A stretch of DNA of 64,000 nt from Streptomyces cyaneogriseus subsp. noncyanogenus. Its GTDB lineage: Bacteria; Actinomycetota; Actinomycetes; Streptomycetales; Streptomycetaceae. A program made the position numbers and the translations under genes. The notes beneath the pieces were generated by a model that searched no databases, had not been told where the DNA came from, and saw only the letters and a list, made by a program, of their open reading frames with translations. How positions within the stretch are numbered: the first letter of the stretch is position 1; every line of letters begins with the position of its first letter. The DNA lies in the NCBI RefSeq assembly GCF_000931445.1, contig NZ_CP010849.1, positions 2,356,001 through 2,420,000 of the forward strand. The letters are read 5' to 3'. Positions 6,891 through 57,308 of the stretch are shown piece after piece.

Positions 6891-6915
6891 CTGTCGTCCG
6901 GCGGTGCGGGACGGC

Positions 6916-9148: not shown

Positions 9149-9161
9149 TCCGTTCCGCTTC

Positions 9162-9204: not shown

Positions 9205-9291
9205 CGTGGACCGTCGGTTTCCGGACAGGCGGGCGTCCACGCAGTGAGAGGGAGGGTCCTGCCGGGCCCCGGGGTCTGCTTCAATGGGTCC

Positions 9292-9414: not shown

Positions 9415-9553
9415 CAGCCCTGCACCCGGCACCCGCCGTACCACGGCTTTCGGTCCGCGCGCACCGCGTACGTCCCTCCCTCGGCCCGCCCGGCACGATC
9501 CGGCGCCCGCCGAGCTCTCCGACGAACCCCTCGCGCGAAAGAGCTGACCTCCC

Positions 9554-10147
9554 ATGGCGACCACCCGTTCCCTGACCACCGCCACGCTCACCTCCCCGGC
9601 TTCTCCGTCCGCCCCGGCCGCGAGCGGCCCGCGGCACCGGCTGCGCTCCGTCGGCCGGGACGAGACCGTCACCGTCACCGACCTCCTGCCGCCCGGCGCC
9701 ACCTGGCTGCCCGCGCCCCAGCACACCCTGCCCGCGCTGCCGGGGCAGCCGCCGATGGTCGGCTACCTGCTGCTGGTCCCCGCCGACCAGCAGCCGCCGT
9801 TCCCGGTGGCGGTGCCGGAACCGGCGCCGCCCGCCGCCGCCGGGCCCGGCGGCGACGCGCTGATCGCGATCGACACCGTGCGCCGCGTCGCCGCGGTCGC
9901 GGGAAGGCAACTGGACCTGACCTACCTGGAGTTCGAACTGCTCGCCCACCTCGTCGCCCACCCGCACCGGGTGCACACGCGGGACCAGCTCGTCACCACC
10001 GTGTGGGGGTACGGCCATGTGGGCGACGGACGCACCGTCGACGTCCACATCGCCCGCCTGCGCCGCAAGATGGGCGCCGAGCACCGGGGCGCGATCCAGA
10101 CCGTGCGGCGCGTCGGGTACAAGTACGTGCCGCCGTCGGACCGCTGA
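9554..10147 (+). CDS. Orphan winged-helix (OmpR/PhoB-type) transcriptional regulator
   Basis: The C-terminal hundred residues of this 197-residue protein form an OmpR/PhoB-type winged helix: LDLTYLEFELLAHLVAHPHR, HTRDQLVTTVWGY, then the recognition and wing segment RTVDVHIARLRRKMG ending in TVRRVGYKYVP. There is no receiver domain with a phosphorylatable aspartate; instead the N-terminus is a Pro/Ala-rich, weakly structured region. It is therefore an orphan DNA-binding protein, not a classical response regulator, and has no sensor kinase neighbour. A possible leader peptide upstream may control it. Confidence 0.88.
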   Translation: MATTRSLTTATLTSPASPSAPAASGPRHRLRSVGRDETVTVTDLLPPGATWLPAPQHTLPALPGQPPMVGYLLLVPADQQPPFPVAVPEPAPPAAAGPGGDALIAIDTVRRVAAVAGRQLDLTYLEFELLAHLVAHPHRVHTRDQLVTTVWGYGHVGDGRTVDVHIARLRRKMGAEHRGAIQTVRRVGYKYVPPSDR

Positions 10148-10212
10148 CGCCGGCCTCTGCCGTCGGCAGACAGCCGTTCCCCCCGGGGCCCGCGCCCGTC
10201 AGGATCAGCACC

Positions 10213-37344: not shown

Positions 37345-37713
37345 GGGGTGTTCCCTTCGGGGAAACGAGGGCCGGTGGAGTGGGCTGATCGTAATGGGGG
37401 ACGAGGGACTGGCGTAGAGGGCCGGAAAGGATCTGTCCCGAGCGGCACCCTGGAATGGCCCGATCGAACACCTGCCCTCTACGCTGCCGGAAGAGACACG
37501 GCCGTTACGGATGCCGGTCCCGGCAGGCAAGATGGCGACAGAGCAGCACCTCCGCGTACGCGGCCGTGAGCACGGCGTTCAGACCGGGGTCGGCCGGCCG
37601 ATCCGGGTCCGCAACGCGCAGGAAACGGTCCTGTGGTGGGATGCTCACGTGCCCGACCGCCTCCCGCGGTACCGGAACAGGCGGCCTGACCAGCAAGGAT
37701 GGGGAAGCGGAAG
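37345..37713. promoter_or_regulatory. Divergent DUF3105 / glnA2 promoter region with spaced inverted repeat
   Basis: No gene is seen in these 369 bp. An exact 11-bp inverted repeat, GCGTAGAGGGC at 37412-37422 and its complement at 37474-37484, is split by 51 bp and could bind a regulator at both sites. A GlnR box like those of glnA and glnII is not evident. Confidence 0.55.
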
Positions 37714-39075
37714 ATGGACAAGCAGCAGGAGTTCGTGCTCCGGACACTGGAGGAGCGCGACATCCGGTTCGTACGCCTGTGGTTCACGGACGTGCTGGGC
37801 TTCCTCAAGTCCGTCGCCGTGGCCCCCGCCGAGCTCGAGCAGGCATTCGACGAGGGCATCGGCTTCGACGGCTCCGCGATCGAGGGCTTCGCCCGCGTGT
37901 ACGAGTCGGACATGATCGCCAAGCCGGACCCGTCCACCTTCCAGGTCCTGCCGTGGCGGGCCGAGGCCCCCGGCACCGCCCGTATGTTCTGCGACATCCT
38001 CATGCCGGACGGCTCCCCGTCCTTCGCCGACCCGCGCTATGTCCTCAAGCGGGCCCTGGCCCGCGCCTCCGACCAGGGTTTCACCTTCTACACCCACCCC
38101 GAGATCGAGTTCTTCCTGCTGAAGGACAAGCCGGTCGACGGGTCGGTGCCCACCCCCGCCGACAACTCCGGGTACTTCGACCACACCCCGCAGAACATCG
38201 GCATGGACTTCCGCCGCCAGGCCATCACCATGCTGGAGTCGATGGGCATCTCGGTGGAGTTCTCCCACCACGAGGGCGCCCCCGGCCAGCAGGAGATCGA
38301 CCTGCGCTACGCGGACGCGCTCTCCACGGCCGACAACGTCATGACGTTCCGCCTGGTGATGAAGCAGGTCGCGCTGGAACAGGGTGTCCAGGCGACCTTT
38401 ATGCCGAAACCGTTCTCCGAGCACCCGGGCAGCGGTATGCACACGCACCTGTCCCTCTTCGAGGGCGACCGCAACGCCTTCTACGAGTCCGGCGCCGAGT
38501 ACCAGCTCTCCAAGGTCGGCCGCTCCTTCATCGCGGGCCTGCTCAAGCACGCCGCGGAGATCTCGGCGGTCACCAACCAGTGGGTGAACTCCTACAAGCG
38601 CATCTGGGGCGGCTCGGAGCGCACCGCGGGCGCCGGCGGCGAGGCCCCCTCGTACATCTGCTGGGGCCACAACAACCGCTCGGCCCTGGTCCGCGTCCCC
38701 ATGTACAAGCCGGGCAAGACGGGTTCCGCCCGCGTCGAGGTCCGCTCCCTGGACTCCGGCGCCAACCCCTACCTCGCCTACGCCGTCCTGCTCGCCGCCG
38801 GCCTGAAGGGCATCGAGGAGGGCTACGAGCTGCCGCCGGGCGCCGAGGACGACGTGTGGGCCCTGTCCGACGCCGAGCGCCGCGCGATGGGCATCGAGCC
38901 GCTGCCGCAGAACCTGGGCGAGGCCCTGACGCTGATGGAGCGCAGCGATCTGGTCGCCGAGACCCTCGGCGAGCACGTCTTCGACTTCTTCCTGCGCAAC
39001 AAGCGCGCCGAGTGGCACGAGTACCGCTCCGAGGTCACCGCGTTCGAGCTGCGGAAGAACCTGCCGGTGCTGTAA
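37714..39075 (+). CDS. glnA2: GlnA2, glutamine synthetase-like (gamma-glutamylpolyamine synthetase type)
   Basis: A 453-residue GSI-fold protein. Ligand motifs are present (GFDGSAIEGF, EIEFFLL, HPGSGMHTHLSLFEG, NNRSALVRVP), but the adenylylation tyrosine region reads EDDVWALSDAE, with Trp where glnA has Tyr397, so GlnE control is unlikely. From literature memory, S. coelicolor GlnA2 glutamylates polyamines rather than ammonium; that specificity is known for the family, not shown here. ATG 37714 follows GGGGAAGCGG. Oddly, its last 28 codons and stop lie within the left attachment repeat of an integrated element, so the 3' end is partly donated by the element. The protein remains intact. Confidence 0.93.
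   Translation: MDKQQEFVLRTLEERDIRFVRLWFTDVLGFLKSVAVAPAELEQAFDEGIGFDGSAIEGFARVYESDMIAKPDPSTFQVLPWRAEAPGTARMFCDILMPDGSPSFADPRYVLKRALARASDQGFTFYTHPEIEFFLLKDKPVDGSVPTPADNSGYFDHTPQNIGMDFRRQAITMLESMGISVEFSHHEGAPGQQEIDLRYADALSTADNVMTFRLVMKQVALEQGVQATFMPKPFSEHPGSGMHTHLSLFEGDRNAFYESGAEYQLSKVGRSFIAGLLKHAAEISAVTNQWVNSYKRIWGGSERTAGAGGEAPSYICWGHNNRSALVRVPMYKPGKTGSARVEVRSLDSGANPYLAYAVLLAAGLKGIEEGYELPPGAEDDVWALSDAERRAMGIEPLPQNLGEALTLMERSDLVAETLGEHVFDFFLRNKRAEWHEYRSEVTAFELRKNLPVL
38988..39074 (+). repeat. attL: element end inside glnA2 3' coding sequence
   Basis: These 87 bp match 55393-55479 with a single substitution (G39054 versus C55459): 66 bp perfect, then 20 bp perfect. Read in glnA2 frame both copies encode the same residues, the difference being synonymous (CGG/CGC, Arg). 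The stop is TAA here and TAG in the right copy. Confidence 0.95.
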
Positions 39076-39096
39076 GGGCAGGTCAGCGCAGGTTTT

Positions 39097-39150: not shown

Positions 39151-40419
39151 TCACTGGTCCTGGGCCGTCTGTGGGCCGTCTGGCGCCGGATCGTTGCCCT
39201 CGTACAGGCCGTCCACGGCCTTCCGGGCCCGCGCGTCGCTGCTCGGCATGAGGTGCGTGTAGACCCGGAGCGTGAACCCCGGATCGCTATGTCCCAGGTA
39301 GGAGCTCAGCGCCTTGACGTTCTCGCCGGCGTCCAGCAGCACGGAGGCGTAGAAGTGCCTCAGGGCGTGCATGCCGTGTTCGCGGGCAGCCTGATGACGC
39401 TCCCCTGGCTTCGGCGCGGGGATCACGCCAGCGGACACGAGAGCAGGCTTCCAGGCGCGGTCGTTGAAGTCAGTACGCCGGACCGCGCCTGCGCCATCGA
39501 GGCGGGTGAACAGCAGCCGCTTCGTGACAGGCGGACCGCCCACCCGGAGCCACGGCAGGGTGATCTCTACCGGAGCGAACACCTCCATGTGCTGCTTGAG
39601 GGCGTGCGCCACGCTGTCCGGCAGGGGAACATCGCGGACCTTGTTCCGCTTCGGTGGAGCGAATACGAGACCCTCTTTCGTCACCTTCACCTGGTTGGCG
39701 ATGTGCAACCATCCGGAGTCGAAGCCGATTGCGTCGACGGGCAACCCGAAGATTTCCCCTTGTCGGAGTCCGCATCCGCCTCCGAGGTCGACCGCCGCGC
39801 GGTATCGCTCCGGCAGCGCCTCTCGTACGGCGAAGACGCGCTTAGCACTCCACGGCACAACGCGACCAGCACCCGCAGCAGGTGGGCGCACCGATTGCGC
39901 GTGGCACGGGTTCTTCGACAGGTGCCCGTCGTCCACGGCTGCGTTGAGGACCGTCGACACGTTGTTGTAGATCACGCGCCGGTACGACGACGCAGGGACA
40001 GCCCGTTCCAGTTCGCTGAGCCAATTCCGGATGTGTTCCGGCTTGAACGAGCCGAGCGGTCGCGGACCCAGGTAGGGGATCGCATGGCCGCGAATCGCGG
40101 ACTCCACCGACTCTCGCGTGGTCATGTCGGTGCTCTGCGTCTTCAGCCACTTCTCGGCGTACTGCCGGAAAGTCACTCGGCTCGCGGCCGGGTCCACGTA
40201 CTGCCCCCGAGACATGTCCGCCTCAATGTGGGCGAGCCACTGATCGGCCAGTCGCTTCTGTCCGTCGGGGAATGACTTGCTCTTCTCGGTCCCGTCCGGA
40301 CCGATGTAGCGGGCGCGGTAGCGCATCCCCTTGCCGTAGCGGGCGGTGCGTACCCGGCGGGGCTTGCCGGCGGCGTCGAGCTCAGTCTTGTACCACCGGT
40401 CTTGAATGTGACCTGCCAT
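39151..40419 (-). CDS. int: Tyrosine recombinase integrase of the AICE
   Basis: The 422-residue phage-type integrase catalyses integration and excision at the glnA2 attachment sites. An N-terminal arm-binding region and a SAM-like core-binding domain (residues ~70-170) precede the catalytic domain. The catalytic tetrad is visible: R219 (GCGLRQGEI), H351 and R354 (MHALRHFYAS), H377 (YLGHSDPG) and nucleophile Y387 (VYTHLM). Its stop is 75 bp from the glnA2 stop, convergent. The 3' end of the gene contains one of the GGGCCGTC repeat pairs found at both element ends, so coding and site function overlap. A hairpin separates it from xis. Confidence 0.97.
   Translation of the reverse strand: MAGHIQDRWYKTELDAAGKPRRVRTARYGKGMRYRARYIGPDGTEKSKSFPDGQKRLADQWLAHIEADMSRGQYVDPAASRVTFRQYAEKWLKTQSTDMTTRESVESAIRGHAIPYLGPRPLGSFKPEHIRNWLSELERAVPASSYRRVIYNNVSTVLNAAVDDGHLSKNPCHAQSVRPPAAGAGRVVPWSAKRVFAVREALPERYRAAVDLGGGCGLRQGEIFGLPVDAIGFDSGWLHIANQVKVTKEGLVFAPPKRNKVRDVPLPDSVAHALKQHMEVFAPVEITLPWLRVGGPPVTKRLLFTRLDGAGAVRRTDFNDRAWKPALVSAGVIPAPKPGERHQAAREHGMHALRHFYASVLLDAGENVKALSSYLGHSDPGFTLRVYTHLMPSSDARARKAVDGLYEGNDPAPDGPQTAQDQ
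39160..39180. repeat. Candidate integrase arm site, left copy
   Basis: This 21-bp stretch is exactly repeated at 55268-55288. Each contains two GGGCCGTC octamers 11 bp apart (one DNA turn). A further octamer is at 39115-39122. In the circular form these would flank the core in the same orientation. Confidence 0.65.
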
Positions 40420-40494: not shown

Positions 40495-40731
40495 TCAGGC
40501 GGCGGCTTCGTCCTGCTTGCGTTGGTCGACGTAGGCCCATACGTCGGCGGGGTCGTAGCGAAGGTGCTTGCCGATGCGGAAGCCGCGCGGGCCGGTGCGC
40601 TTCTTGCGCCACTGGTAGACGGTCTCCAGGGGCACTTCGAACATCTCGGCGATGTCGTCAGGGGTGAGATAGCGGTCCGGGAGGCCGCCTCGGAGGGTGG
40701 CGCGGGGGTCGGGGTCTGCCTGCTTTGCCAT
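40495..40731 (-). CDS. xis: Excisionase (MerR/HTH_17-type DNA-binding protein)
   Basis: A 78-residue basic protein of the kind encoded upstream of AICE integrases. The winged-helix pattern is complete: RYLTPDDIAEMFEVPLETVY, WRKKRTGPRGFRIGKHLRYD, then ADVWAYVDQRK. Such proteins bend the attachment DNA and tip the reaction towards excision. ATG 40731 has TTGGAG upstream; the frame reads further upstream through the iteron array without a good start. It is followed by int on the same strand. Confidence 0.92.
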   Translation of the reverse strand: MAKQADPDPRATLRGGLPDRYLTPDDIAEMFEVPLETVYQWRKKRTGPRGFRIGKHLRYDPADVWAYVDQRKQDEAAA

Positions 40732-41105
40732 AGGGGACTCCAAGCGGGGCGGGGCCGCATCTGTCCGAGGTGCGGATTTCTGCGTCACCCGCGTCATCTG
40801 CGTCATTCGCGGCTCTGACCTGCGGTTTCGCGGTGACGCAGCGCGGTGGGTCTATGTCACCGGTGACACAGACCCGCGTCATCGGGTGACGCAGGTGACG
40901 CGGGGTGACGCAGGATTCGGCGGTCTGCGTCACCCGTCTTTCGGCAGGTCACCGGCCGTTTTCGGGGTGCGGGTGACGCAGGTGACGCAGGATCTCTCTA
41001 CTTCGGACAAAGAGGGGGTGGTGTCTGTTGTGGTGCGCGGCTCAGGACATGAAGAAGGAGCCGCTTCGCGGCGCGACCATCGCAGGGCGGCGCCGCCGCC
41101 GAACA
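40732..41105. other. Iteron region: candidate replication origin of the AICE
   Basis: No convincing gene. Between 40780 and 40990 lie eight exact copies of TGACGCAG or its complement (copies at 40780, 40798, 40833, 40886, 40905, 40925, 40973 and 40982, start of the 8-9 bp unit) plus a one-base variant at 40895, in both orientations, and the palindrome TGTCACCGGTGACA at 40855-40868. This resembles an iteron origin or a protein-binding array. It sits between the replication gene and xis. Confidence 0.7.
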
Positions 41106-41166: not shown

Positions 41167-42651
41167 TCAGAAGGCCGCTTCCTGCTCGGGCGGGGGTGCC
41201 GCGGCGGCCGGCCGTGCGATCTCGATGTAGCGGGATGCATTGGTGCGTCCCCAGTCGATGAGGACGCCCCGGGCGGCGAGGGTGGGCTGAAGGCGCTTGA
41301 GGCGGTCTGAGAGCACCTTGCCGGTGGTCGGCCACCCTTTGGGCAGGGGACGGAAGTCCTCGCCCGTGTAGAGGCCCGTGAGGCAGTGCAGCCACTCGGC
41401 CGACGTCATCCGCTGCTCGGTCCCCGGTTCGATACTGGCGGCGTGCTTGAGCACGGTCTGTGCCAGCAGGTCCCCTTCGATCACGTCGTCGTTGAGGTCG
41501 TCCAGGCTGGCCCGGTAGGCGTTCAGCGCTCCCAGGCCGGTGGCCGCGTCGAGCTGCGCACACAGGTGGGCGAAGTCGGCCATGCGCAGGTCGGTCGGGA
41601 TCTCCGCCTGAGCTGCCCGCACCTGCACCGTGAGGTCCAGGAGCGAGCCGAGGACGACCGGTAGAACCTCCTCGTACTCCGCCCACAGCTCCGCCTCCGT
41701 ACGCCTGACGCGCGGGCGTTCCAGGCGCAGGGGAAGGAGGCGTTCGGCGAGGTCGGGCCGGATCACGCCCACGTCGATCCCGGTCAGGAGCAGGGGGCGG
41801 CGGTAGCGGGCCCGGAACACGTCCCCGTCGGTGAACAGGGCCCGCTTGACGTTCTCCGCCCCGGTGACGATGCAGCACATGGCGTCCGACAGGTCCGGAG
41901 TCATGTGGGAGAGGTTGTCCAGGGCGGTGACCCAGCCGGCGGCCACGGCGGCGATCAGGTTTTCCTCATCCTTCGGGGCCCGGCGCAGATCGCCGCTCAT
42001 GCCCTCGATGACCCGCACAAGCATGCGTCCACCGGTGGACTTTCCCGCTCCCTGCGGACCGGTGAGGAAGGGGGCCGGCACGGGGACGGACGGCCCGAGA
42101 CAGCCGATGAGCCAGGCGATGGCCAGGCACTCCGTCTCCGCGTTGGCGAAGTTGCACAGCCTCAACAGGGCATCGATGCCCTTGCCATCGGTGTCCTTGA
42201 CCGGCACCGGGAGTTCCCCGGTGAGCTGGGTACGCCGCCAGCACACCTCGTGCGGGTCGGGGACGGCGATGTCCCATCCGGTGGGGTGGATACGGACGGA
42301 CAGACCGTCGCTGCGCCCGAGGTCCAGCCACGTTGCCCCGTCGTGGCCGGGGGCGACGCGGATGTGGACGGGCTGGACGTCCTCGGTCAGCGCGAGTGCT
42401 TCGATCAAGTCCAGTGCCTCCTTCAAGGCGGTGCCGTTGAACACGCCGAGCCCGTCACGGAAGAGGCCGACCATGAGTTCCTGGCGGTGGCTTCCCGTGG
42501 TGCCCTGGGAGCGGATCGGGCGGGCCACGGGGTGGCCGTTCTTCTGCGCGTATACGGTCCCGTCGGCGGTGCGGAAGTACCGGAAGTGCGTTTGCGCGTA
42601 GTCGGTGATGACCTGGCGAGCGGGGTTCTTCTCGTCGTCGGACACGGTCAC
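41167..42651 (-). CDS. AICE replication protein, helicase-like P-loop ATPase
   Basis: A 494-residue protein with a Walker A at residues 198-206 (GPQGAGKST, K204) and a likely Walker B, WVTALDNLSH, 50 residues later. These fit a helicase/replication-initiator of the D5/primase-helicase type that accompanies the prim-pol in many AICEs. The C-terminal region (SAEWLHCLTGLY, SDRLKRLQPTLAARGVLIDW) looks like a winged helix for DNA binding. GTG 42651 overlaps the prim-pol stop (GTGA), so translation is coupled; an ATG farther upstream is less likely. Iterons follow its 3' end. It is needed for the element's replication in its excised state by inference. Confidence 0.85.
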   Translation of the reverse strand: MTVSDDEKNPARQVITDYAQTHFRYFRTADGTVYAQKNGHPVARPIRSQGTTGSHRQELMVGLFRDGLGVFNGTALKEALDLIEALALTEDVQPVHIRVAPGHDGATWLDLGRSDGLSVRIHPTGWDIAVPDPHEVCWRRTQLTGELPVPVKDTDGKGIDALLRLCNFANAETECLAIAWLIGCLGPSVPVPAPFLTGPQGAGKSTGGRMLVRVIEGMSGDLRRAPKDEENLIAAVAAGWVTALDNLSHMTPDLSDAMCCIVTGAENVKRALFTDGDVFRARYRRPLLLTGIDVGVIRPDLAERLLPLRLERPRVRRTEAELWAEYEEVLPVVLGSLLDLTVQVRAAQAEIPTDLRMADFAHLCAQLDAATGLGALNAYRASLDDLNDDVIEGDLLAQTVLKHAASIEPGTEQRMTSAEWLHCLTGLYTGEDFRPLPKGWPTTGKVLSDRLKRLQPTLAARGVLIDWGRTNASRYIEIARPAAAAPPPEQEAAF

Positions 42652-43490
42652 AGCCCCAACCGGGTACGGGCGTTGGTCCACGCGTCCGAGCAGTGCCGGC
42701 GGGACTCGCCCTTGGTCTGCGCGGCGGTGAACAGCCGCGTGATGTGAATCTCAGTGAGGCAGCCGCACCGGCCGTGCGTGGACAGCACAGCGAGGAAGGT
42801 CCCGTAGACGGTGGCGTGTACCTGACTGCGCGCCTGCGTGATGCGCTGCTCGGCCATCGCGATGCCGCGTTCCAGGTAGGCGGGCGTGCGGTGCGGGCAC
42901 TGCCCGCCGCCGGCCGGTGAGCGCACGGCAAGGGCGCCCGAGGCGGGCCGGACCGCAGGCGGCTTCGCCACGGTCAGCGCCCGGACGGCGTCCGGCAGGG
43001 GCGCCAAGGTGCCGGTGCCCGGCCCCCGCCAGCGGGCGTAGGCCATGGTCGACTTGATGTCGACGCCCTCGCGGACGGCGTTCACGGAACGCGTGGTGCC
43101 CTGGTAGATCCAGTGCTCCCCGCGCGTGGTGGCCACAGTCCGGGTCGGGGGCAGGGACTGCCGGGCCCATGCGATGGCCTCCGCGTCGTCCAGGTCGACC
43201 ACGGTCAGCCCGGCCCCGCCGGGGTGATAGGCGACCGCCACGGCCTGCCGCCACGCCGTGGCCCACGAGGGCGAGGTGAGCACGCGGATGTCGGTGGTGG
43301 CGGCGGCCCACCCGTGGCACGGGGCCGGGCACAGGCACGGTCCGGCCGCCTTCATGTTCGGCCGGTCCCCGCACGCGCTGTCCCTGCAAGTGGGGCAGTT
43401 CCCGAACGGCACCTTCCCCTTGCGCAGGGGAAACACGGGCAGACCGCTGACTGCGAGACGGAGAGCGGTGTGCAGCAGGCGCTCGCTCAT
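42648..43490 (-). CDS. Bifunctional primase/polymerase (prim-pol) of the AICE
   Basis: A 280-residue DNA primase/polymerase N-terminal-domain protein. The fold signature includes VSGLPVFPLRKGKVPF at the N-terminus, GLTVVDLDDAEAIAWAR (metal-binding Asp pair) and RTVATTRGEHWIYQGTT. A cysteine-rich insert (CPTCRDSACGDRPNM...CLCPAPCHGW) between the first strand and the active site could bind zinc, as is common in AICE prim-pols. ATG 43490 overlaps the stop of a 29-residue ORF (ATGA). The next gene overlaps its stop as GTGA, so the three are one coupled operon. Confidence 0.88.
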   Translation of the reverse strand: MSERLLHTALRLAVSGLPVFPLRKGKVPFGNCPTCRDSACGDRPNMKAAGPCLCPAPCHGWAAATTDIRVLTSPSWATAWRQAVAVAYHPGGAGLTVVDLDDAEAIAWARQSLPPTRTVATTRGEHWIYQGTTRSVNAVREGVDIKSTMAYARWRGPGTGTLAPLPDAVRALTVAKPPAVRPASGALAVRSPAGGGQCPHRTPAYLERGIAMAEQRITQARSQVHATVYGTFLAVLSTHGRCGCLTEIHITRLFTAAQTKGESRRHCSDAWTNARTRLGL

Positions 43491-43576
43491 GCGGCCACAA
43501 CCAGCCGGTGGGCGGGGCAGTCCAGCAGGTGCGGGCGGTGGCCGGGCACTCGCCGGATGGGGGTGGGTTGCGTCAT
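43487..43576 (-). CDS. 29-residue coupled small ORF ahead of prim-pol
   Basis: A 29-codon frame (MTQPTPIRRVPGHRPHLLDC... ending in RLVVAA) starts at ATG 43576 with GGAGGT about ten bases upstream, the best Shine-Dalgarno site in this operon. It stops in an ATGA overlap with prim-pol. The arrangement indicates real translation and coupling; the peptide itself is not recognised. It may simply bring ribosomes to prim-pol. Confidence 0.6.
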   Translation of the reverse strand: MTQPTPIRRVPGHRPHLLDCPAHRLVVAA

Positions 43577-43613
43577 GCTGGAGACCTCCACAGCTCTGTT
43601 GAGGGCAGGTGGG

Positions 43614-43658
43614 CAAGGGCGGCCCCGGGTCTTTGGCGAGATGTGGGGGCCGCCCTTG
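43614..43658 (-). terminator. Terminator after spread gene
   Basis: CAAGGGCGGCCCC (43614-43626) pairs exactly with 43646-43658, starting 7 bp beyond the end of the spd-like gene on the minus strand. It separates the transfer operon from the replication operon. Confidence 0.75.
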
Positions 43659-49646: not shown

Positions 49647-50179
49647 CAGGCCACCTCCCCGACCGGCTTCCCCGCGGGCATCCACGCGCGACGAAAGCCG
49701 TTGCAGGCGGCGTCGTAGATGAACGCCGCACACCGCCACTCGGACTCGGCGGCCGGGCGTTCACCGGCGGGCACCCACACCGCGCCCGGGTCAACTCCGT
49801 GGGTGGCGGTGTCGGCGTAGGCGTCCTCGCGGGAGGCATAGATCGTGTGGGGCTCGCCGTAGTGCAGCAGCACCGTCAGCGACCGCCCCTCCAGCGACTC
49901 GCCCTCCAGCTCCGCACGCAGTCGGCGGATCTCGATGTCCTTCAGCAGCAGCTCCTGCTGCGCGGCGGACAGCTCCTCCACCGCACGGGCCAGCAGTACG
50001 CCCACCTCGGTGGCCGTCGCCTCCGCCCGCTCCGCGCGGTCGACGGCGGCGTACAGCTCCAGCAGGTGCCGGCCGAACGCTTCGTCCGCCGCACCGCTCG
50101 TCTGCCGGGCGTACGCGCGGGCTACACGAGCGTCGCGCTCAAGCCGGGCGATGCGGGCCCCGGTGACGATGCGGATCAC
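49646..50179 (-). CDS. Coiled-coil protein of the AICE transfer operon
   Basis: A 177-residue protein. The first 110 residues are charged and predicted coiled coil (ARLERDARVARAYARQTSG, EELSAAQQELLLKDIEIRRL). The rest (LLHYGEPHTIYASREDAYAD..., WRCAAFIYDAACNGFRRAWM) looks like a small globular domain. Unknown function. GTG 50179 overlaps the stop of the DUF6284-like gene and its stop overlaps the next start, so it is read as part of the coupled operon. Confidence 0.75.
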   Translation of the reverse strand: MIRIVTGARIARLERDARVARAYARQTSGAADEAFGRHLLELYAAVDRAERAEATATEVGVLLARAVEELSAAQQELLLKDIEIRRLRAELEGESLEGRSLTVLLHYGEPHTIYASREDAYADTATHGVDPGAVWVPAGERPAAESEWRCAAFIYDAACNGFRRAWMPAGKPVGEVA

Positions 50180-50445
50180 GCCGCACCACCCGGCAGGCTG
50201 ACACCGGCCGCGCGGTTGGCGAGCGCCGCACGCTCGGCCAGCACCCGTCGACGCGCCCGGCGGATGCGGCGGGCGTCCAGCTCGGTCGGCACGCGGTCCA
50301 GGGTGATGATCTGCGCGTCGAGCAGGTCGACGTCCGCCAGGATGACGGGCATCTCCTGCTCGATCGCGTCCAGCTCCGCGTCCGTCGGCTCCATGAAGTC
50401 CGCGAACGCCGTAACAGCGTCCTGAACAGTAACGATGTGGCTCAT
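50176..50445 (-). CDS. DUF6284-like small protein, first gene of the transfer operon
   Basis: An 89-residue helical protein (MSHIVTVQDAVTAFADFMEP...) with an acidic region (DAELDAIEQEM) and a basic C-terminus (ARRIRRARRRVLAERAALAN). The family is small, recurrent in actinomycete mobile elements and of unknown function; DUF6284 is a recollection. It opens the leftward operon that runs through traB. Two hairpins lie in the leader and operator-like repeats farther out. Confidence 0.75.
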   Translation of the reverse strand: MSHIVTVQDAVTAFADFMEPTDAELDAIEQEMPVILADVDLLDAQIITLDRVPTELDARRIRRARRRVLAERAALANRAAGVSLPGGAA

Positions 50446-50484
50446 TGGGTCGTGGTCTCCCTTGCAGGTGGAACGGCCCGAACA

Positions 50485-50514
50485 GCGCCCCCGGAGTTGC
50501 CGCTCCGGGGGCGC
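50485..50514 (-). repeat. 12-bp hairpin in transfer-operon leader
   Basis: GCGCCCCCGGAG (50485-50496) and its exact complement (50503-50514), loop TTGCCG, 40 nt ahead of the first start codon on the minus strand. Possible attenuator. Confidence 0.7.
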
Positions 50515-50550
50515 GCGCCGTTGAAGTCGGAACATCCGGCTCCCCTCAGC

Positions 50551-50573: not shown

Positions 50574-50784
50574 GGAGGCAACCGGCCGCAGCAAAGCTGC
50601 GGAAGTTGGGTCGCGCTGTACCTCACACGGAGAGCCCGTGTGGCCGCCTACTTGGCCGAGGAGAGGCGGCGTGATCCCCATTCAGTTGTCAATAAACAAC
50701 CAGTTCAGAGCCTTACGACTGCCTGCAAGCGCGCCGCAGCTACCCTGCCCGGATACAAAGACTGACTCAACGGTGTTGGTGGTG

Positions 50785-50797
50785 TTGTACCAACAAC
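50785..50797 (-). promoter_or_regulatory. Candidate GntR/KorSA-type operator 1
   Basis: On the minus strand reads GTTGTTGGTACAA; the same motif, 12 of 13 bases, occurs at 50852-50864 on the plus strand. A related half-site pair is at 50685-50700. Confidence 0.6.
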
Positions 50798-50851
50798 CGA
50801 TTGCCCTGAGCTTGCCCCGAGTCATTGGGGCCGTCAAGCCGAAGGGCGTAT

Positions 50852-50864
50852 GTTGTTGGCACAA
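50852..50864 (+). promoter_or_regulatory. Candidate GntR/KorSA-type operator 2
   Basis: GTTGTTGGCACAA lies 25 bp before the gntR start and is followed by an inverted GCCAA (50869-50873). Position suggests autorepression. Confidence 0.6.
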
Positions 50865-50889
50865 GTCAGCCAACTAGCAGGGAGGCACC

Positions 50890-51651
50890 GTGCGGGAGCA
50901 GCGCCCGAGGTACCACCGGATCGCGGATGACCTGCGGGGACAGATCGAGCGGGGGGAGCTTGAGGCCGGTGAACAGCTCCCGACGGAGTTTGAACTGGTT
51001 GAGCGATACGAGGCGAGCCGCAACACTGTTCGGCTGGCACTGCGTCGCCTGACCGAAGAGGGGCTCATCATTGCAGGTCAGGGGCGTGGGAGCTTCGTTC
51101 GCCGTAGCCTGACGCCGGCAGTCTGGGATTGGTCGGTGCTGGAGTCGCGCGCACGGCACAAGTCAGACGACAACGGCGACCAGTGGGCCAGCATCGTGGC
51201 TGAAAGTGGTCGCCAGCCCCGGCAGGAGGTGCGTGTGTCGATCCGGCGTCCACCGACGGAAGTCGCGGAACGTCTCCAGCTTGACCCCGAGACTGCGCTG
51301 ACCGTTGTCCGCGAGCGAGTACGCATAGTCGACCAGGACCCGTACGCCTTGGCTGACTCCTACTTCCCCGAAGAACTGGTTCGGGGCACGCCGCTCATGC
51401 TGCCGGAAGACGTGTCGGCGCCTGGCGGCGTCCTGGCCAGTGTTGGCCTTGTCCAGGCTCGCTATCGCGACGAGATCACGGTACGGATGCCGACGCGCGT
51501 GGAAATCGAGAAGCTGTCTCTACCCTCTGCCACTCCCGTGGCCGTCCACATGCGTACGGGCTACGACGAGAACGACCGGCCGCTACGAGTAATGATCACA
51601 ATCCTTCCGGGAGACCGTCATGTCATCAGGTACGACGTTTCGGCAGAGTGA
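50890..51651 (+). CDS. GntR family (HutC/UTRA) repressor, KorSA-like
   Basis: A 253-residue regulator. The N-terminal winged helix is RYHRIADDLRGQIERGELEA, LPTEFELVERYEASRNTVRL and GLIIAGQGRGSFV, and the C-terminal UTRA ligand-binding domain covers about residues 90-245. In pSAM2-like AICEs a GntR protein at this position (KorSA) represses replication and transfer; the same role is inferred here from divergent orientation to the transfer operon and operator-like repeats between. GTG 50890 follows GGGAGG. Confidence 0.9.
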   Translation: MREQRPRYHRIADDLRGQIERGELEAGEQLPTEFELVERYEASRNTVRLALRRLTEEGLIIAGQGRGSFVRRSLTPAVWDWSVLESRARHKSDDNGDQWASIVAESGRQPRQEVRVSIRRPPTEVAERLQLDPETALTVVRERVRIVDQDPYALADSYFPEELVRGTPLMLPEDVSAPGGVLASVGLVQARYRDEITVRMPTRVEIEKLSLPSATPVAVHMRTGYDENDRPLRVMITILPGDRHVIRYDVSAE

Positions 51652-51676
51652 GCACGTCCCACAGGAGCTAGCCAGA

Positions 51677-52348
51677 GTGAAAGCCCTGCGAAGCATCGAC
51701 TCGACACTTCCGCGCAACCTGCACCCTCCGAGGGTGTGGTACACGTCCTACGGCTCGAACATGCATCTGGACCGACTTGCCGCCTACATCCAAGGCGGCC
51801 GGCCGCCCGGAGCGGCAAGGGAGTACCCGGGGTGCCGCAACCGAGCCATGCCAACTCAGTCCATCCCCGTGGAACTGACCGGCGCAATGTACTTCGCCAC
51901 GGAGTCGCCCGTGTGGGGAGGCGGCAGGGCCTTCTACGACCCGGACGCGTCCGGGCGCGTGCTCGCCAGGGCGCACCTGATTACGGTGGAGCAGTTTGCC
52001 GACATCGCGGCTCAGGAGATGTACCGACAGCCGGGAGTAGACCTTGACCTGGTTGATGCTCTGACACAGGGGCGTGATGTGTTGGGTGGCGGTCGATATG
52101 AAACGCTCGTGTGTGCTGGACAGGTCGATGGCCTGCCTGTTCTGACCTTTACTGCACCGTGGGGAATGAACGATATTCAGTGGGTTCCCCCCTCACCGGC
52201 ATACGTGCGTTTCCTGGCGTCGGGCCTACTGTCGACTGGCGCGTGGGACGAGGATGCCGTGGCCACGTACGTCGCGGCATGTCCGGGCGCATCCGGTCAC
52301 TGGTCGTCGAAAGACATCGCCGCTCTACTGAAACCAAAAGCGCTCTGA
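51677..52348 (+). CDS. Gamma-glutamylcyclotransferase-fold (GGCT/AIG2-like) protein
   Basis: A 223-residue protein. The N-terminal WYTSYGSNMHLDRLAAYI contains the YGSN motif that lines the active-site cavity of the gamma-glutamylcyclotransferase fold, and a conserved acidic residue is expected later (RAHLITVEQFADIAAQEM). The biochemical role is not known. Start GTG 51677 is preferred for GGAG nine bases upstream; an ATG at 51620 overlaps gntR. It follows gntR on the same strand and is probably co-transcribed with it. Presence in an AICE next to the repressor is unexplained. Confidence 0.72.
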   Translation: MKALRSIDSTLPRNLHPPRVWYTSYGSNMHLDRLAAYIQGGRPPGAAREYPGCRNRAMPTQSIPVELTGAMYFATESPVWGGGRAFYDPDASGRVLARAHLITVEQFADIAAQEMYRQPGVDLDLVDALTQGRDVLGGGRYETLVCAGQVDGLPVLTFTAPWGMNDIQWVPPSPAYVRFLASGLLSTGAWDEDAVATYVAACPGASGHWSSKDIAALLKPKAL

Positions 52349-52542: not shown

Positions 52543-54018
52543 TCAGTTGACGGATCTCGAACTGTCCAATTGGCGAGAAATTGCATGAATCTGCATTTCC
52601 AGATCATGAATCGAAGAAGCTGTATCGAGAAGCTTCCGCCTGCTTTCCTTTGCTTCCCTGGCAAGCCTTTCCCGCTCTGCGTCCGGCGTGGTGGAGTCCG
52701 CGTTACGCGCCGCCCTCTCATTTTCCGCAACCACAGCTATCGCCATATCACGCTCTTTGCGAGCAGATTCCAGCAACCCCCTAAGATCGGCCAACTCATT
52801 CATGAGGAGGCGGTACTCGCTGGTCCTGTCCTCGCGTTCTGGTCCCTCACTATCTGTGCCACCTACGGCGCTTTGCACACTGACGTAATGACGGAAACGC
52901 TCGAAGCACTCTAACGGGATCGCAACCAAGACATCCCCATGAGTGTTCCGTTTGCGTATCTTCATTGAGTTGAGAATCCGAAGAGTTTCCTCCGCCGCTC
53001 CCTCCTCTTCGGAACTCAATGAGCCATCAGCGCGGACATAGTGGTTCTCATAGTAGGTAGCAATGTAGTTGTAGATCGGACCGAAATGTCGGCTGGGAAG
53101 GGTGACAAGCACGTCTCGCTCCGATCCGCTATCGCGCACATTCTTCGCCTGTTGCATAGTCGATTGACTCACCGCAGCACCCAGCACCTCCTTCGCCATG
53201 CCAAGAAAATGCGGCAGTTGAGTCATCAAGAGATCATTGTTGCAGCGTTCCTTGAACTCTTCGAGAAGTTCAGGGCGGGCCCCAACAACGAATCCAGCTT
53301 CCTTTTTTACCCAATCATCCTTAACGTCATTCGTAACCAACAGGACTGGCGTTTGCCGTTGCGCAGCTTCTCTCAGCAGTTGCTCCCAGACGAAAAAATC
53401 CCCGTGCGCGTTCTCGGACTTGCCCGCATCTCGATAGCCTGGCGGAATTTGCTCAGCAACTCTTTCTTGGAATTCCGCAATAAGGGCGTCGCTGTCTTCG
53501 TCGGAGAACGGGTCACCTGTTTTCCCGTCCAGGATTCGCGAGAGGGCGGAGAGGATGGGGTCATCGCGCACGACTTTAGCTAGCGATAGGTCAAATGCGT
53601 CCGAATGACGCCGAATCTCTGCAGCGACCTTATCGAAGGCATCATTGATAGGCGCTGTCAGAAGTTGTTTATCTGCGTCGTTCATCGAACATCTTTTAGC
53701 CAGATTCTGCACCTCGTGTAGCGCCTTATTGCGCAGCGTGTTGAGGCCGTCAGGGACAGAAGTGTAGAGATTCAAATGCTCGCGCACGGCTTCAAATCGG
53801 CGGTTGTGATATTCGCGTGCTACCTGATGGGGGACCCACAAGCGGTGATCCAATTGAGCTAGCACGTCAAGTAGCTCATGCCGCGCCTGTGGAGTAAATC
53901 GGTAGAGTTCCAGCAATACGTTCGTATCTAGCACGATCAGGTAGCGTTTGACGGCTTCCTTGTAATCGTCGATGGAACGAGCCCACAACCCATCAAAGCC
54001 AGCAAGAAACGTTGACAT
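52543..54018 (-). CDS. PIN-like nuclease-domain protein, low GC (candidate defence cargo)
   Basis: A 491-residue protein. The N-terminal PIN-like (PIN_8/DUF4935-type) nuclease has conserved acidic residues: D31 (VLDTNVLLELYR), E69 (HQVAREYHNRR), D207 (HGDFFVWEQ) and D231/D234 (LVTNDVKDDWVKK), consistent with a metal-dependent RNase or DNase. The middle is helical and the C-terminus (about 400-491) a coiled coil. GC is visibly lower than the surroundings: one 60-base line I counted has 42%, another about 55%, against about 70% in the flanking chromosome. This suggests recent transfer. Start ATG 54018 faces the SRA-HNH gene. Phage defence is inferred only. Confidence 0.75.
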   Translation of the reverse strand: MSTFLAGFDGLWARSIDDYKEAVKRYLIVLDTNVLLELYRFTPQARHELLDVLAQLDHRLWVPHQVAREYHNRRFEAVREHLNLYTSVPDGLNTLRNKALHEVQNLAKRCSMNDADKQLLTAPINDAFDKVAAEIRRHSDAFDLSLAKVVRDDPILSALSRILDGKTGDPFSDEDSDALIAEFQERVAEQIPPGYRDAGKSENAHGDFFVWEQLLREAAQRQTPVLLVTNDVKDDWVKKEAGFVVGARPELLEEFKERCNNDLLMTQLPHFLGMAKEVLGAAVSQSTMQQAKNVRDSGSERDVLVTLPSRHFGPIYNYIATYYENHYVRADGSLSSEEEGAAEETLRILNSMKIRKRNTHGDVLVAIPLECFERFRHYVSVQSAVGGTDSEGPEREDRTSEYRLLMNELADLRGLLESARKERDMAIAVVAENERAARNADSTTPDAERERLAREAKESRRKLLDTASSIHDLEMQIHAISRQLDSSRSVN

Positions 54019-54244
54019 GGCACACCCCCCACTCCTGCGAACAGGTTATCCGAGTACCTGCCCTCTCGGATGTTTTCTGCAGGACACCGGTCGGCAGCAC
54101 GCTCCGGTGTCCGGGGTGCGGCCAGCACGAGGCGGCAGAGGGGTCGGCCTGACCTGGAAGAGAGAGAAGCTCTCCTGCCCTCCCTGAGCGGTGTCCGGGT
54201 CAAACCGCTGTGGGAGCGTCAGTACCGCGTGCCAGGCTGTGGCC
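54019..54244. promoter_or_regulatory. Divergent gap, PIN-like / SRA-HNH genes
   Basis: Contains a 9-bp inverted repeat GGACACCGG ... CCGGTGTCC (54082-54090, 54104-54112). No other gene is supported. It probably holds both promoters. Confidence 0.5.
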
Positions 54245-55138
54245 ATGATCGGTGATGTACCCAACGTTGAAGCGGGCCAGGAGTTCAGCACGCGCCGGCA
54301 GGCGCACGAGGCGGGTGTCCATAGGCCCTTGCAGGCGGGCATCTGCGGGACGAAGAAGACCGGTGCCGAGTCCATCGTCGTGTCCGGCGGCTACAAGGAC
54401 GATGAGGACTACGGTGACGTCATCGTCTACACCGGCCACGGTGGCCAGGACGGCGCCGGCAACCAGGCGAGCGACCAGACCTTGGACGACTCTGGCAATG
54501 CAGCGCTCGTGACGAGCTACCTCGAAGGACTGCCTGTCCGCGTCCTGCGCGGCTACCAGGCTGGTACCCCTTACGCCCCTGCGTCCGGGTACCGGTACGA
54601 CGGTCTGTACCGGGTCACCAACTACGGCAGCAAGCTTGGCATCGATGGCTTCCTGATCTGGCAGTTCCGCCTCGAAGCCTATGACGACACCCCCACGCCC
54701 CAGGCGACGCAGCAGGCGGAGCTCCCGAGCGCGCCTGGAGAGGGGGAGGCTGCTGTCACGGGGAATGAGACCCCGGAGCGCATTACCTCGACTGTGCAGC
54801 GCATCGTTCGAAGCAGCGCTGTAAAGCGACAGGTGAAGGAGTGGCACGACAACCGGTGCCAGATCTGCGACCTGCGCATCGAGGTCCCCGGCGGAAGCTA
54901 CAGCGAAGGCGCCCACATTCGAGCCCTCGGGGCTCCTCACAACGGCCCGGACACGACCGGCAACGTCCTCTGCCTGTGCCCGAACTGCCACGTGATGCTC
55001 GACGCCGGCGCCATCGTCATCGAAGACGACCTGACGGTGATCCGCGGCGGCCAGCCTGCCGGCACGTTGCGCACCGACCCCCGGCACACGATCGACCTAG
55101 AGTGCGTCCGTCACCACCGCGAACGCTGGCGCCAGTAG
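54245..55138 (+). CDS. SRA-HNH modification-dependent restriction endonuclease (type IV-like)
   Basis: A 297-residue protein with an N-terminal SRA/YDG domain (residues ~5-150; DYGDVIVYTGHGGQD, ALVTSYLEGLPVRVLRGY, YRYDGLYRV) that flips and reads a modified cytosine, and a C-terminal HNH nuclease with C205-x2-C208 (CQIC), H224 (EGAHIRAL), N240, C245-x2-C248 (CPNCH). The SRA-HNH order is that of known 5-methylcytosine-dependent nucleases; methylation-dependent restriction is widespread in Streptomyces. Inferred role: cutting incoming methylated DNA. ATG 54245, or GTG 54239, is used; no strong Shine-Dalgarno. Divergent from the PIN-like gene. Confidence 0.86.
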   Translation: MIGDVPNVEAGQEFSTRRQAHEAGVHRPLQAGICGTKKTGAESIVVSGGYKDDEDYGDVIVYTGHGGQDGAGNQASDQTLDDSGNAALVTSYLEGLPVRVLRGYQAGTPYAPASGYRYDGLYRVTNYGSKLGIDGFLIWQFRLEAYDDTPTPQATQQAELPSAPGEGEAAVTGNETPERITSTVQRIVRSSAVKRQVKEWHDNRCQICDLRIEVPGGSYSEGAHIRALGAPHNGPDTTGNVLCLCPNCHVMLDAGAIVIEDDLTVIRGGQPAGTLRTDPRHTIDLECVRHHRERWRQ

Positions 55139-55267
55139 GCGCGACCGAACCCCATCGCGGCGGGCCAAATCTGCGCCTGTTCCCCCAGGTGTCCCCCGGC
55201 ACCGAGCGAGTAGAGGAAGGCCGCAGGGCATGAGCTGAGCGCGCTGTAACTCTGCCGTGTTCCAGCG

Positions 55268-55392: not shown

Positions 55393-55479
55393 CTTCCTGC
55401 GCAACAAGCGCGCCGAGTGGCACGAGTACCGCTCCGAGGTCACCGCGTTCGAGCTGCGCAAGAACCTGCCGGTGCTGTA
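55393..55479 (+). repeat. attR: right copy of glnA2 3' end
   Basis: This repeats glnA2 codons for the final 28 residues but has no gene upstream in frame, so it is a non-functional 3' fragment, the original chromosomal end, still ending in TAG at 55480. See attL for the alignment. Confidence 0.95.
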
Positions 55480-55498
55480 GGCGCCCGGTGCGGCGGGC

Positions 55499-55526
55499 GG
55501 GGCCGGCGGGCGGGTCCGCCGGCCCC
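55499..55526. terminator. Original glnA2 terminator, now orphaned
   Basis: GGGGCCGGCGG (55499-55509) pairs exactly with 55516-55526, 19 bp after the TAG of the right copy. It would have followed glnA2 before insertion; it now separates the element from convergent tetR. Confidence 0.75.
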
Positions 55527-55540
55527 GTCGCCGTTCCCGT

Positions 55541-56164
55541 TCACGGCCGCAGGCGCGGTGCCGAGGGCAGCGGCGGCCGTGGTTCCGTACCCGGCACGGC
55601 GCGGAACGCCTCGATCATGTAGGCGGCGAAGCGGCGGGAGGCCGTGAGCCGGTCGGCGGGCGGCAGGTCCTGGACGCCCCGGTGGGCCGCGAGCATCAGG
55701 ATCAGGTCGTCCACGACGAAGCCGGCCCGCAGCTCGCCGGTCCGCCGGGCGCGGCGGGCCAGTTCGGTGACCGCGAAGAGGCTCCGTTCCCGGTCCGCGG
55801 CGAAGTCGGCGGCCTCGGGGAACGCCGTCATGAAGGCGTCGGCGAACCCGGGGCTGCGGGCGTGCAGTTCGCAGATCCGCTCGATGAGGCTGCGCAAGCC
55901 GTGCCAGGGGTCCGGGTCCGCGAGGGCGTCGCGGACGACGGTGCGGCAGATGTGCCGCTGGTCGGCGAAGGCGGCCTCGGCCAGGTCCCGCTTGGCCGGG
56001 AAGTGCCGGTAGAGCGTGGCGGGGCCGACGCCCGCGTGCCGGGCGACCTCGCGCACGGGCGCGCCCAGTCCCCGCTCGCCGAACACCGCGCGGGCGGCCC
56101 TCAGGATGCGGGCGCGGTTGTCGCGGGCGTCGGAGCGGGCCAGGTGAGACGAACGGCCGGTCAT
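55541..56164 (-). CDS. TetR family transcriptional regulator
   Basis: A 207-residue regulator with an N-terminal HTH: NRARILRAARAVFGERG, APVREVARHAGVGPATLYRHF, PAKRDLAEAAF. The C-terminal domain is a divergent TetR ligand domain. It is divergent from the oxidoreductase at 56252 across 87 bp, the usual layout of a local repressor controlling its neighbour. Ligand unknown. Confidence 0.93.
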   Translation of the reverse strand: MTGRSSHLARSDARDNRARILRAARAVFGERGLGAPVREVARHAGVGPATLYRHFPAKRDLAEAAFADQRHICRTVVRDALADPDPWHGLRSLIERICELHARSPGFADAFMTAFPEAADFAADRERSLFAVTELARRARRTGELRAGFVVDDLILMLAAHRGVQDLPPADRLTASRRFAAYMIEAFRAVPGTEPRPPLPSAPRLRP

Positions 56165-56251
56165 CGCTTCTCACTTCGGTCGGGCGGGCGGGGGCGTCCG
56201 TTACGTTCCGAACGCCCAGCGTACGAGGAGCCACCGCGCCGAGGAGCCGAG

Positions 56252-57217
56252 ATGAAGGCTGTCGTGATCAGGACGTTCGGAAGCGCCGACGGCCTGGAGG
56301 TCGTCGACCTGCCCGTGCCCGGCCCCGGGCCGGGGCAGGTGCGGATCGCCACGGAGGCGGTCGGGGTGGGCGGGGTGGACGCCGTCGTCCGCCGGGGCAC
56401 CCTCGCCGGGTACGGCTTCCGGGAGGGGCATCTCCTCGGCAGCGAGGTCGCGGGGCGCGTCACCGCGGTGGGCGAGGGCGTGGACGCCTCGTGGCGGGGG
56501 CGGCGGGTCTGGGCGTTCACGGGTCTGTCCGGTGGCTACGCCGAGCAGGCCGTCGCCGCGGTCGGGGACGTCCTCCCGCTGCCCGACGGGCTGGGAGCCG
56601 TCGACGCGGTGACCCTCGGCGGGTCGGGGGTGGTCGCCCACTTCGCGCTGCGGCACGGCCGGCTCGCGCCCGGCGAGACCGTGCTGGTGCGCGGCGCCGC
56701 GGGCAGCATCGGGATCGCGGCGGTGCAGCTCGCGGCCCGGGGCGGGGCGGGCGCGGTGGTGGTCACCACCTCGTCCGCCGGGCGCGGTGCCCGTCTGCGG
56801 GAGCTGGGCGCGACCCATGTCCTGGACCGGGCCGGCGAGGGCGGCGGCCCGGACGCGCCCTCCGGCTTCGACGTGGTGATCGACGTGGTGGGCGGCCCTC
56901 AGGTCCCCCGCTTCCTGGACCGGCTGCGGCCCGGGGGCCGGTTCGTCGCCGTCGGCGTGGTCGCCGGGCCGCCGCCGGCGGACTTCGGCATGCGGCTGGT
57001 GGACGCCTTCCGCAAGTCCCTGACGTTCGCCACGTTCAGCTCCGACACGGTGCCGGGCCCCGACCGTCAGGCGGTGCTCTCGGCCCAGTTCGCCGAGGCC
57101 GCCCGCGGCGAACTGCGCACGGTCGTGCACCAGGTGCTGCCCCTGTCCGAGGCGGCCCGGGCCCACCGGGCGATGGACGCGGGCGAGGTCTTCGGCCGCA
57201 TCGTGCTGACCCCCTGA
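56252..57217 (+). CDS. Zinc-independent MDR oxidoreductase (quinone reductase-like)
   Basis: A 321-residue medium-chain dehydrogenase/reductase. The N-terminal domain has GLEVVDLPVPGPGPGQVRI and LLGSEVAGRVTAVGEGV, with no zinc-binding cysteines. The cofactor domain has the nucleotide-binding VLVRGAAGSIGIAAVQLAA and DVVIDVVGG. This pattern fits quinone oxidoreductase (QOR-like) NADPH enzymes. ATG 56252 follows GAGGAG. It probably responds to the divergent TetR regulator, perhaps for detoxification of reactive quinones or aldehydes; the substrate is not indicated. Confidence 0.9.
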   Translation: MKAVVIRTFGSADGLEVVDLPVPGPGPGQVRIATEAVGVGGVDAVVRRGTLAGYGFREGHLLGSEVAGRVTAVGEGVDASWRGRRVWAFTGLSGGYAEQAVAAVGDVLPLPDGLGAVDAVTLGGSGVVAHFALRHGRLAPGETVLVRGAAGSIGIAAVQLAARGGAGAVVVTTSSAGRGARLRELGATHVLDRAGEGGGPDAPSGFDVVIDVVGGPQVPRFLDRLRPGGRFVAVGVVAGPPPADFGMRLVDAFRKSLTFATFSSDTVPGPDRQAVLSAQFAEAARGELRTVVHQVLPLSEAARAHRAMDAGEVFGRIVLTP

Positions 57218-57221
57218 ACCG

Positions 57222-57245
57222 CCGTCGCCCCTGCCACGGCGACGG
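57222..57245. terminator. Hairpin between oxidoreductase and MFS gene
   Basis: CCGTCGCC (57222-57229) pairs with GGCGACGG (57238-57245) 4 bp after the oxidoreductase stop; a second GC-rich hairpin-like stretch follows before the convergent MFS gene. Confidence 0.55.
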
Positions 57246-57308
57246 GGTCCGCCCCCGCCGCCGGGGCGCCGGCGGGACGGCCCGGCCGGTGCCCCGGAGG
57301 GCGGCGCC

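Follow-up and report, generated by a model that had tools for sequence, protein, structure and literature searches.

What is a gene of strikingly low guanine-plus-cytosine (GC) content doing among the cargo of an integrative element in Streptomyces cyaneogriseus subsp. noncyanogenus? The gene encodes a 491-aa PIN-domain protein at positions 52543-54018 of a 64,000-nt stretch of contig NZ_CP010849.1 (forward-strand positions 2,356,001 to 2,420,000), hereafter the window. It lies in an element resembling an actinomycete integrative and conjugative element (AICE), and an earlier note proposed that it might be an unknown defence gene. We determined by computation its family, predicted PIN fold, conserved acids, variable tail, mostly single-gene habit, and mobile or defence surroundings. 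On balance we favour a reading in which this one protein, part of the element's exchangeable cargo, would defend against phages by itself, as an auto-inhibited, infection-triggered ribonuclease (RNase). This context supports the defence part of the proposal; the word unknown does not stand, since the family already has a name, PF18476 (PIN_8).

A low-GC member of PF18476

The gene runs on the minus strand from an ATG at 54018 to a stop at 52543, 491 codons that coincide with the open reading frame (ORF) of the earlier note. Its product matches PF18476 over profile positions 1-227 of 227 (E 1e-58) and scores 199.4 bits against a Pfam gathering cut-off of 26.1; PIN_12 also lies above its cut-off. 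The gene is thus a genuine PF18476 member and, because the whole profile is matched and homologues with 55-60% identity exist, not a chance ORF. NCBIfam gave no match for the protein, a search of the available literature found no paper with PF18476 and one with DUF4935, and plasmid records label relatives 'PIN-like domain-containing protein'. The GC content of the gene is 53.3%, compared with 71.6% across the window, which bears out the low GC remarked on earlier, and the lowest-GC gene-length stretches of the 64 kb fall on it. It is the single PIN_8 match in its 7.76-Mb genome. There were no promoter-like sites and one terminator-like site, against a mean of 1.7 in shuffled sequences. Its features are as follows.

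52543..54018, minus strand: PIN_8 (PF18476) protein, 491 aa, the subject gene (ORF at exact coordinates, Pfam)
53266..53940, minus strand: PIN_8 domain, residues 27-251 (Pfam E 1e-58, conserved acids, PIN fold)
53596..53829, minus strand: predicted long helical hairpin inserted in the PIN core, residues 64-141 (AlphaFold2 models, block pLDDT, the predicted local distance difference test, 94-98)
52543..53118, minus strand: hypervariable C-terminal part, residues 301-491 (structure prediction, alignments)

An exchangeable interval with defence-type cargo

The gene occupies the variable right end of the element, inside its terminal repeats, with the following genes around it.

50176..50535, minus strand: DUF6284 gene, an anchor common to the sister elements (Pfam, comparison)
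51620..52348, plus strand: left border gene of the cargo interval, also in L268 (no Pfam family at 0.01)
54191..55138, plus strand: SRA-HNH endonuclease, TagI-like, start possibly at 54239 (SAD_SRA and HNH, Pfam)

The PIN_8 gene points away from the SRA-HNH gene across a gap of about 172-220 bp and stands tail to tail with 51620-52348; being divergent from one neighbour and convergent with the other, it forms a single-gene unit.

Four sister elements (L267-L270), whose SRA-HNH copies are 88-97% identical, carry Prim-Pol, DUF6284 and SRA-HNH DNA in the same order as the window, and this common order places the PIN_8 gene inside the element. Their intervals are occupied by other low-GC genes (60-62% in the four intervals, 69-70% in the loci). 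L268 shares both borders with the window (50764-52306 and 54184-55257), with 4.4 kb of other DNA replacing PIN_8; the intervals of L267, L269 and L270 include a regulator too, because their common left anchor is DUF6284. From the sister intervals we scanned a selection of ORFs, nine proteins and one SRA-HNH. Five of eight scanned cargo proteins, in three of the four elements, match PADLOC defence-type models: a PDC-S60-like and a weakly ThsB/TIR-like protein in L267, a McrA-like type IV enzyme and an OLD/GajA/AriA-like ATPase in L268, and an RmrA/capP-like protein in L270. PDB matches support these assignments. In L271 a single protein was scanned, and it gave no match. The earlier suggestion that such positions often hold phage-defence genes agrees with this result. 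On a small sample, the sister intervals give the most direct support for placing PIN_8 in a putative defence-cargo position.

A predicted split PIN core and a fast-changing tail

The AlphaFold2 model of the N-terminal part (pLDDT 94.8, predicted template modelling score 0.89) has a PIN nuclease fold that a long helical hairpin interrupts. The best VIA match of this model is 1ye5 (Z 9.7, 144 aligned residues, 3.4 A), and further matches include R. felis VapC2 (Z 8.9), PAE2754 (8.3), the exosome chain 5vzj_K (8.3), which we take to be Rrp44, and FitB (7.9). Matches to PIN proteins span model residues 21-280. Because the single-domain targets are 133-147 residues long, the N-terminal part has about 110 extra residues, chiefly the hairpin at 64-141. 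A sequence-profile search of PDB returned four weak coiled-coil-type matches only (E 0.11-0.63).

The alignments confirm the acidic residues seen in the earlier note. In alignment A3 (71 rows), the invariant acids are D31, E69, D153, D207 and D235, with D231 close to invariant; in A7 (71 rows, N-terminal part), D31, E69, D207 and D235 are invariant, and D231 is absent from the invariant and near-invariant lists. In A1 (51 rows: P0001 and 50 of 59 ORF matches, those of L101, L106 (two), L034 (two), L085, L091, L093 and L094 being left out), E69, D207, D231 and D235 are invariant, and D31 is nearly so, with Y in L073. By its predicted fold and conserved acids, the window protein is a member of the PIN nuclease superfamily. 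It has the fold and acidic site of VapC toxins and differs from them by the predicted hairpin, a 190-residue tail and the lack of a recognised antitoxin partner.

The tail is predicted to form a small alpha/beta region (about 302-385) followed by helices 393-439 and 446-490, in agreement with the long coiled-coil C-terminus described before. It changes faster than the core: identity to the closest homologue, L187, is 59% in the N-terminal and 23% in the C-terminal part, to L188 54% and 27%, and among nine homologues compared 32-59% and 22-34%. An Atlantibacter plasmid homologue has a GHKL domain (PF14501) in this position. L100:7956-9371, on a plasmid with SIR2-family and ATP-binding genes, encodes a PIN_8 protein with a GHKL-like C-terminus, and the tail encoded at L035:7944-9524 (Acinetobacter plasmid) contains near-identical repeats of about 17 residues.

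Homologues without a fixed partner, and the addiction alternative

Collapsed at 90% identity, the 195 loci gave the 174 in which neighbours were counted, and close partners were counted in the 160 of these with genes on both sides; in unannotated loci the genes came from a simple caller, and gap and partner figures are approximate. A same-strand gene lies within 50 bp of 27/160 PIN_8 genes (17%), compared with 61% of 2537 other genes in the same loci; by source, such a partner was found for 6/67 PIN_8 genes in viral loci and 21/93 elsewhere. No close partner is conserved over the 160 genes, as an adjacent antitoxin of the VapBC kind would be, and no recognised antitoxin is present at the window locus, where small overlapping ORFs occur and were left unscanned. 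The earlier statement that the gene is not part of a simple VapC pair agrees with this.

These counts bear on an alternative in which PIN_8 is an addiction or maintenance module: a VapC-like toxin that stabilises the AICE or plasmid and whose antitoxin is encoded elsewhere, is a small RNA or comes from a short overlapping ORF. The nearness of the fold to VapC-type proteins, the presence of PIN_8 on very small plasmids and the unscanned overlapping ORFs are all compatible with this. On the other side, no adjacent partner recurs, close same-strand partners are rare and mostly unclustered (16 of 28 belong to no cluster), Rfam gave no match in 50-56 kb, and the protein, at 491 aa and with its long variable tail, does not resemble a bare VapC. 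We regard an addiction module as unlikely.

Many homologues lie in mobile-element surroundings. An integrase-cluster gene is adjacent in 16/174 loci and within three genes in 20, and in nine loci a C5 methyltransferase cluster occurs no more than three genes away. In the AICE-like loci L072 and L188, an integrase-cluster gene immediately precedes PIN_8, and AICE genes such as DUF6284 lie near it in L062 and L063. In viral loci, 20/140 PIN_8-adjacent genes match integrase phrog_1, and portal-protein families have 5-6 matching members each and tail-protein families five each. In four viral contigs (L116, L117, L132, L148), PIN_8 stands between an integrase-cluster gene and a gene that, read by eye, we take to be MutS-like; there it probably lies at the end of an integrated element.

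The GC content of PIN_8 falls below the local mean in 80/80 viral, 32/36 Streptomyces and 16/17 plasmid loci. Since it does so in loci of about 27% to 70% GC, recent import from one low-GC donor is weakened as the sole cause. Low GC is described as a general tendency of defence genes (PMC13092281), so the GC of PIN_8 agrees with a defence role and is no proof of one.

We also read 21 plasmid records, chosen rather than random. Product names indicate defence-type neighbours in seven (L035, L036, L037, L096, L098, L100, L103) and large helicases in two (L104, L106), and six are small plasmids of 2.1-6.0 kb with little other cargo (L032-L034, L093-L095). The E. coli plasmid record L093 (2099 bp) is mostly a PIN_8 gene and is perhaps incomplete, because it is given as linear; a 99.7% identical gene lies on the ECOR 10 plasmid L095.

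PIN_8 in larger operons

Two operon types contain PIN_8; they were named with PADLOC and Pfam on genes of L186 and L213 and by blastp clusters in the other loci. In the first, DruF-DruL-DruE-PIN_8 (L082, L083, L084, L089 and L186; nearby in L090), PIN_8 follows DruE on the same strand by 10-166 bp, and PADLOC identifies the L186 genes as DruF4, DruL4 and DruE4, that is, Druantia IV-type. Among 392 Streptomyces genomes, 13 have DruE and five of these have PIN_8 within 10 kb (G047, G128, G145, G379, G179); G072, among the five closest DruE copies, has no PIN_8. The window element differs from these relatives: no Druantia gene was found among its scanned genes, and a search of its genome at 1e-60 gave no DruE match. 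In L083, L087, L089, L090 and L092, a conserved protein of about 198 aa is encoded 45-128 bp downstream of PIN_8; its L089 copy (6957-7550) matches nothing in Pfam or PADLOC.

In the second type (L213, L217, L259, L266), PIN_8 is joined by a GHKL ATPase, an Mrr/helicase and a protein of 175-205 aa. Upstream lies a C5 methyltransferase gene, which is on the opposite strand in L259, and Vsr is present in L213, L217 and L259; plasmid L103 resembles this type by product names. The conserved 175-205 aa protein ends 0-78 bp before PIN_8 (L213:9283-9897, L217:9282-9896, L259:9474-9998, L266:9461-9985), and neither Pfam nor PADLOC matches its L213 copy.

Distribution of the family

PIN_8 relatives occur in 34/392 Streptomyces genomes, the own genome included, and 54/72,556 plasmid records match the N-terminal part at E 1e-3. 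In species genomes, 128/179 pattern matches are relatives (80 kept); by record title these come, among others, from Actinomycetota, Pseudomonadota, Bacteroidota, Chloroflexota, a cyanobacterium, Bacillota, Patescibacteria and methanogenic archaea. In IMG/VR, 101/123 pattern matches encode relatives (80 kept); a single-protein search there found no relative, and an alignment query did. One PIN_8 DNA query matches 1/5426 E. coli genomes and two others match none. One Streptomyces genome (L065) has two different PIN_8 genes (6109-7566 and 9083-10363) about 1.5 kb apart.

More tentatively, we propose that PIN_8 may be a broad, uncatalogued antiviral nuclease family of bacteria and some archaea. 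Its members would combine a hairpin-split core with swappable, infection-sensing tails (coiled coil, GHKL ATPase-like and others), acting alone on plasmids, prophages and AICEs and also serving as the nuclease of Druantia IV-type and methyltransferase-GHKL-helicase operons.

Weighing the defence reading

Several results weigh against the defence reading. No PADLOC model matches the window protein, and of 51 PIN_8 members scanned with PADLOC, two each gave one weak match to another family (JetC, CARF). Foldseek of the models found no match at E <= 0.001 in PDB, nor in BFVD. In the sister elements, the scanned proteins of the L269 interval include no recognised defence gene, the TIR-like match in L267 is partial, RmrA-like proteins may be regulators, and G106, with an SRA-HNH match of 92-98% in two pieces, was left out of the set. 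PIN_8 is missing within 10 kb of DruE in 8/13 genomes, and six of the 21 plasmid records lack a defence-type neighbour by product name (L038, L097, L099, L101, L102, L105). A control with PADLOC on 144 near and 144 far proteins from 36 loci did not discriminate: near genes matched 108 families and far genes 77 (25 shown for each; the tool reports families, not proteins), clear defence genes appeared in both, and no random positions were compared. Finally, 0/50,697 phage records match PIN_8, and the prophage signal therefore rests on IMG/VR contigs, whose borders may include host DNA.

The lack of phage-record matches would also fit competition between mobile elements, in which the nuclease targets incoming plasmids, AICEs and prophages rather than virulent phages, and many PIN_8 contexts are indeed mobile, often beside integrases. 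Against this, the Druantia IV-type and restriction-modification-like operons suggest general antiviral use, and the two aims are not mutually exclusive. We consider competition as the principal role improbable.

A further alternative is that PIN_8 and the divergent SRA-HNH gene work as one unit, for example a type IV restriction system in which PIN_8 would supply the RNase activity. The earlier note had correctly seen a modification-dependent endonuclease back to back with PIN_8: its best PDB match is the TagI restriction endonuclease 6ghs (E 4e-86), a likeness that belongs to the neighbour at 54191-55138 and not to the PIN_8 gene. SRA-HNH relatives occur in 72/392 Streptomyces genomes, and we fetched the five best besides the own copy: G341, G020 and G077 (96-97%), G215 (88%, with an in-frame stop) and G159 (81%). 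The genomes of the first four have no PIN_8 match, and G159 has one nearly 2 Mb away. Moreover, blastp at 1e-8 found no SRA-HNH homologue among the 2871 called flanking genes of the 174 PIN_8 loci, the 21 plasmid loci excluded. Because SRA-HNH occurs without PIN_8 in sister elements and was not found among the called genes flanking PIN_8 in these loci, we reject the partnership as very unlikely, and SRA-HNH is probably a bystander. Equally remote is a housekeeping-like role in tRNA or mRNA processing comparable to minimal RNase P (HARP), which the VIA matches to HARP chains 8ssg (Z 7.7) and 8kda (Z 7.5) might suggest and which we reject given relatives in just 34/392 Streptomyces genomes and a sole own copy on a mobile element.

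The defence-cargo reading is supported by the exchangeable interval, the single-gene habit, the AICE, plasmid and prophage-like distribution, and the Druantia IV-type and restriction-modification-like placements.

A possible mechanism and its closest precedent

For the window protein as a defence effector, we infer an RNA substrate, metal use, auto-inhibition, a trigger and an abortive outcome. The N-terminal 300 residues would be a metal-dependent PIN ribonuclease with its core split by the helical hairpin, and the fast-evolving C-terminal part, with its predicted alpha/beta region and coiled coil, would be regulatory and probably sensing. PIN_8 would be transcribed on its own, with no antitoxin, and silenced by intramolecular inhibition. 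A phage product or process may lift this inhibition, and the freed nuclease would then cut RNA (tRNA or mRNA) and stop phage growth, likely at the cell's cost.

The closest published case is DS-3, found with DefensePredictor among 69 E. coli strains, most of them from ECOR (PMC13092281, Science 2026). DS-3 is described as a one-protein PIN defence system with no cognate antitoxin; its PIN ribonuclease domain is split, catalytic mutants lose defence, and its authors propose auto-inhibition (PMC13092281). A one-protein PIN defence without an antitoxin is therefore not unprecedented. The window gene is likewise single, with a PIN domain and no recognised antitoxin; its likeness to DS-3 is one of described plan. 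That an ECOR 10 plasmid carries a PIN_8 gene is no more than a lead to a possible relation between DS-3 and PF18476. The auto-inhibited RNase reading follows from this similar plan together with the candidate regulatory tail.

The host element and its ends

The 16.4-kb element between direct repeats is AICE-like, with integrase, replication and regulatory genes all lying between the att repeats.

38988..39079, plus strand: attL, 92-nt repeat, the 3' end of the glutamine synthetase gene (repeat search)
55393..55484, plus strand: attR, 97% identical direct repeat, 92 nt (repeat search)
37699..39075, plus strand: glutamine synthetase gene, presumed integration target (Pfam, repeat position)
39151..40419, minus strand: tyrosine integrase of the element (Pfam)
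40495..40806, minus strand: HTH_17 protein, excisionase-like (Pfam)
42648..43616, minus strand: Prim-Pol protein of the element (Pfam)
50890..51651, plus strand: GntR/UTRA regulator (Pfam), presumably KorSA-like

The search for an FtsK-like transfer protein gave no Pfam match at 1e-3 in the element ORFs at 44198-46321 and 46325-47938. The presumed target is the 3' end of glutamine synthetase and not a tRNA; ARAGORN detected no tRNA anywhere in the window. None of the relatives compared showed a two-sided empty site: L054, L056 and L057 show an element-free gene end, and there the DNA right of attR does not lie downstream of the glutamine synthetase gene. In L055 the window's right flank likewise does not adjoin that gene, at whose end is an integrase-like remnant of 166 nt, 92% identical to the integrase end, which may be the trace of a related element. 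The major facilitator superfamily (MFS) gene at 57309-58523, which the window has to the right of attR, is located past the NAD synthase gene in L051, L054, L055 and L057. Comparison with these relatives suggests that region 55485-58523 is rearranged.

Implications

To our knowledge the effector of Druantia is not settled; a link to PIN_8, if true, would suggest a nuclease for the Druantia IV-type operons. If the defence reading is correct, a 'PIN-like' family with no matching PADLOC model would provide single-gene defence across many phyla and would illustrate a way of restraining a ribonuclease toxin that has no antitoxin. The cargo intervals of Streptomyces AICEs would then be a place to find defence genes.
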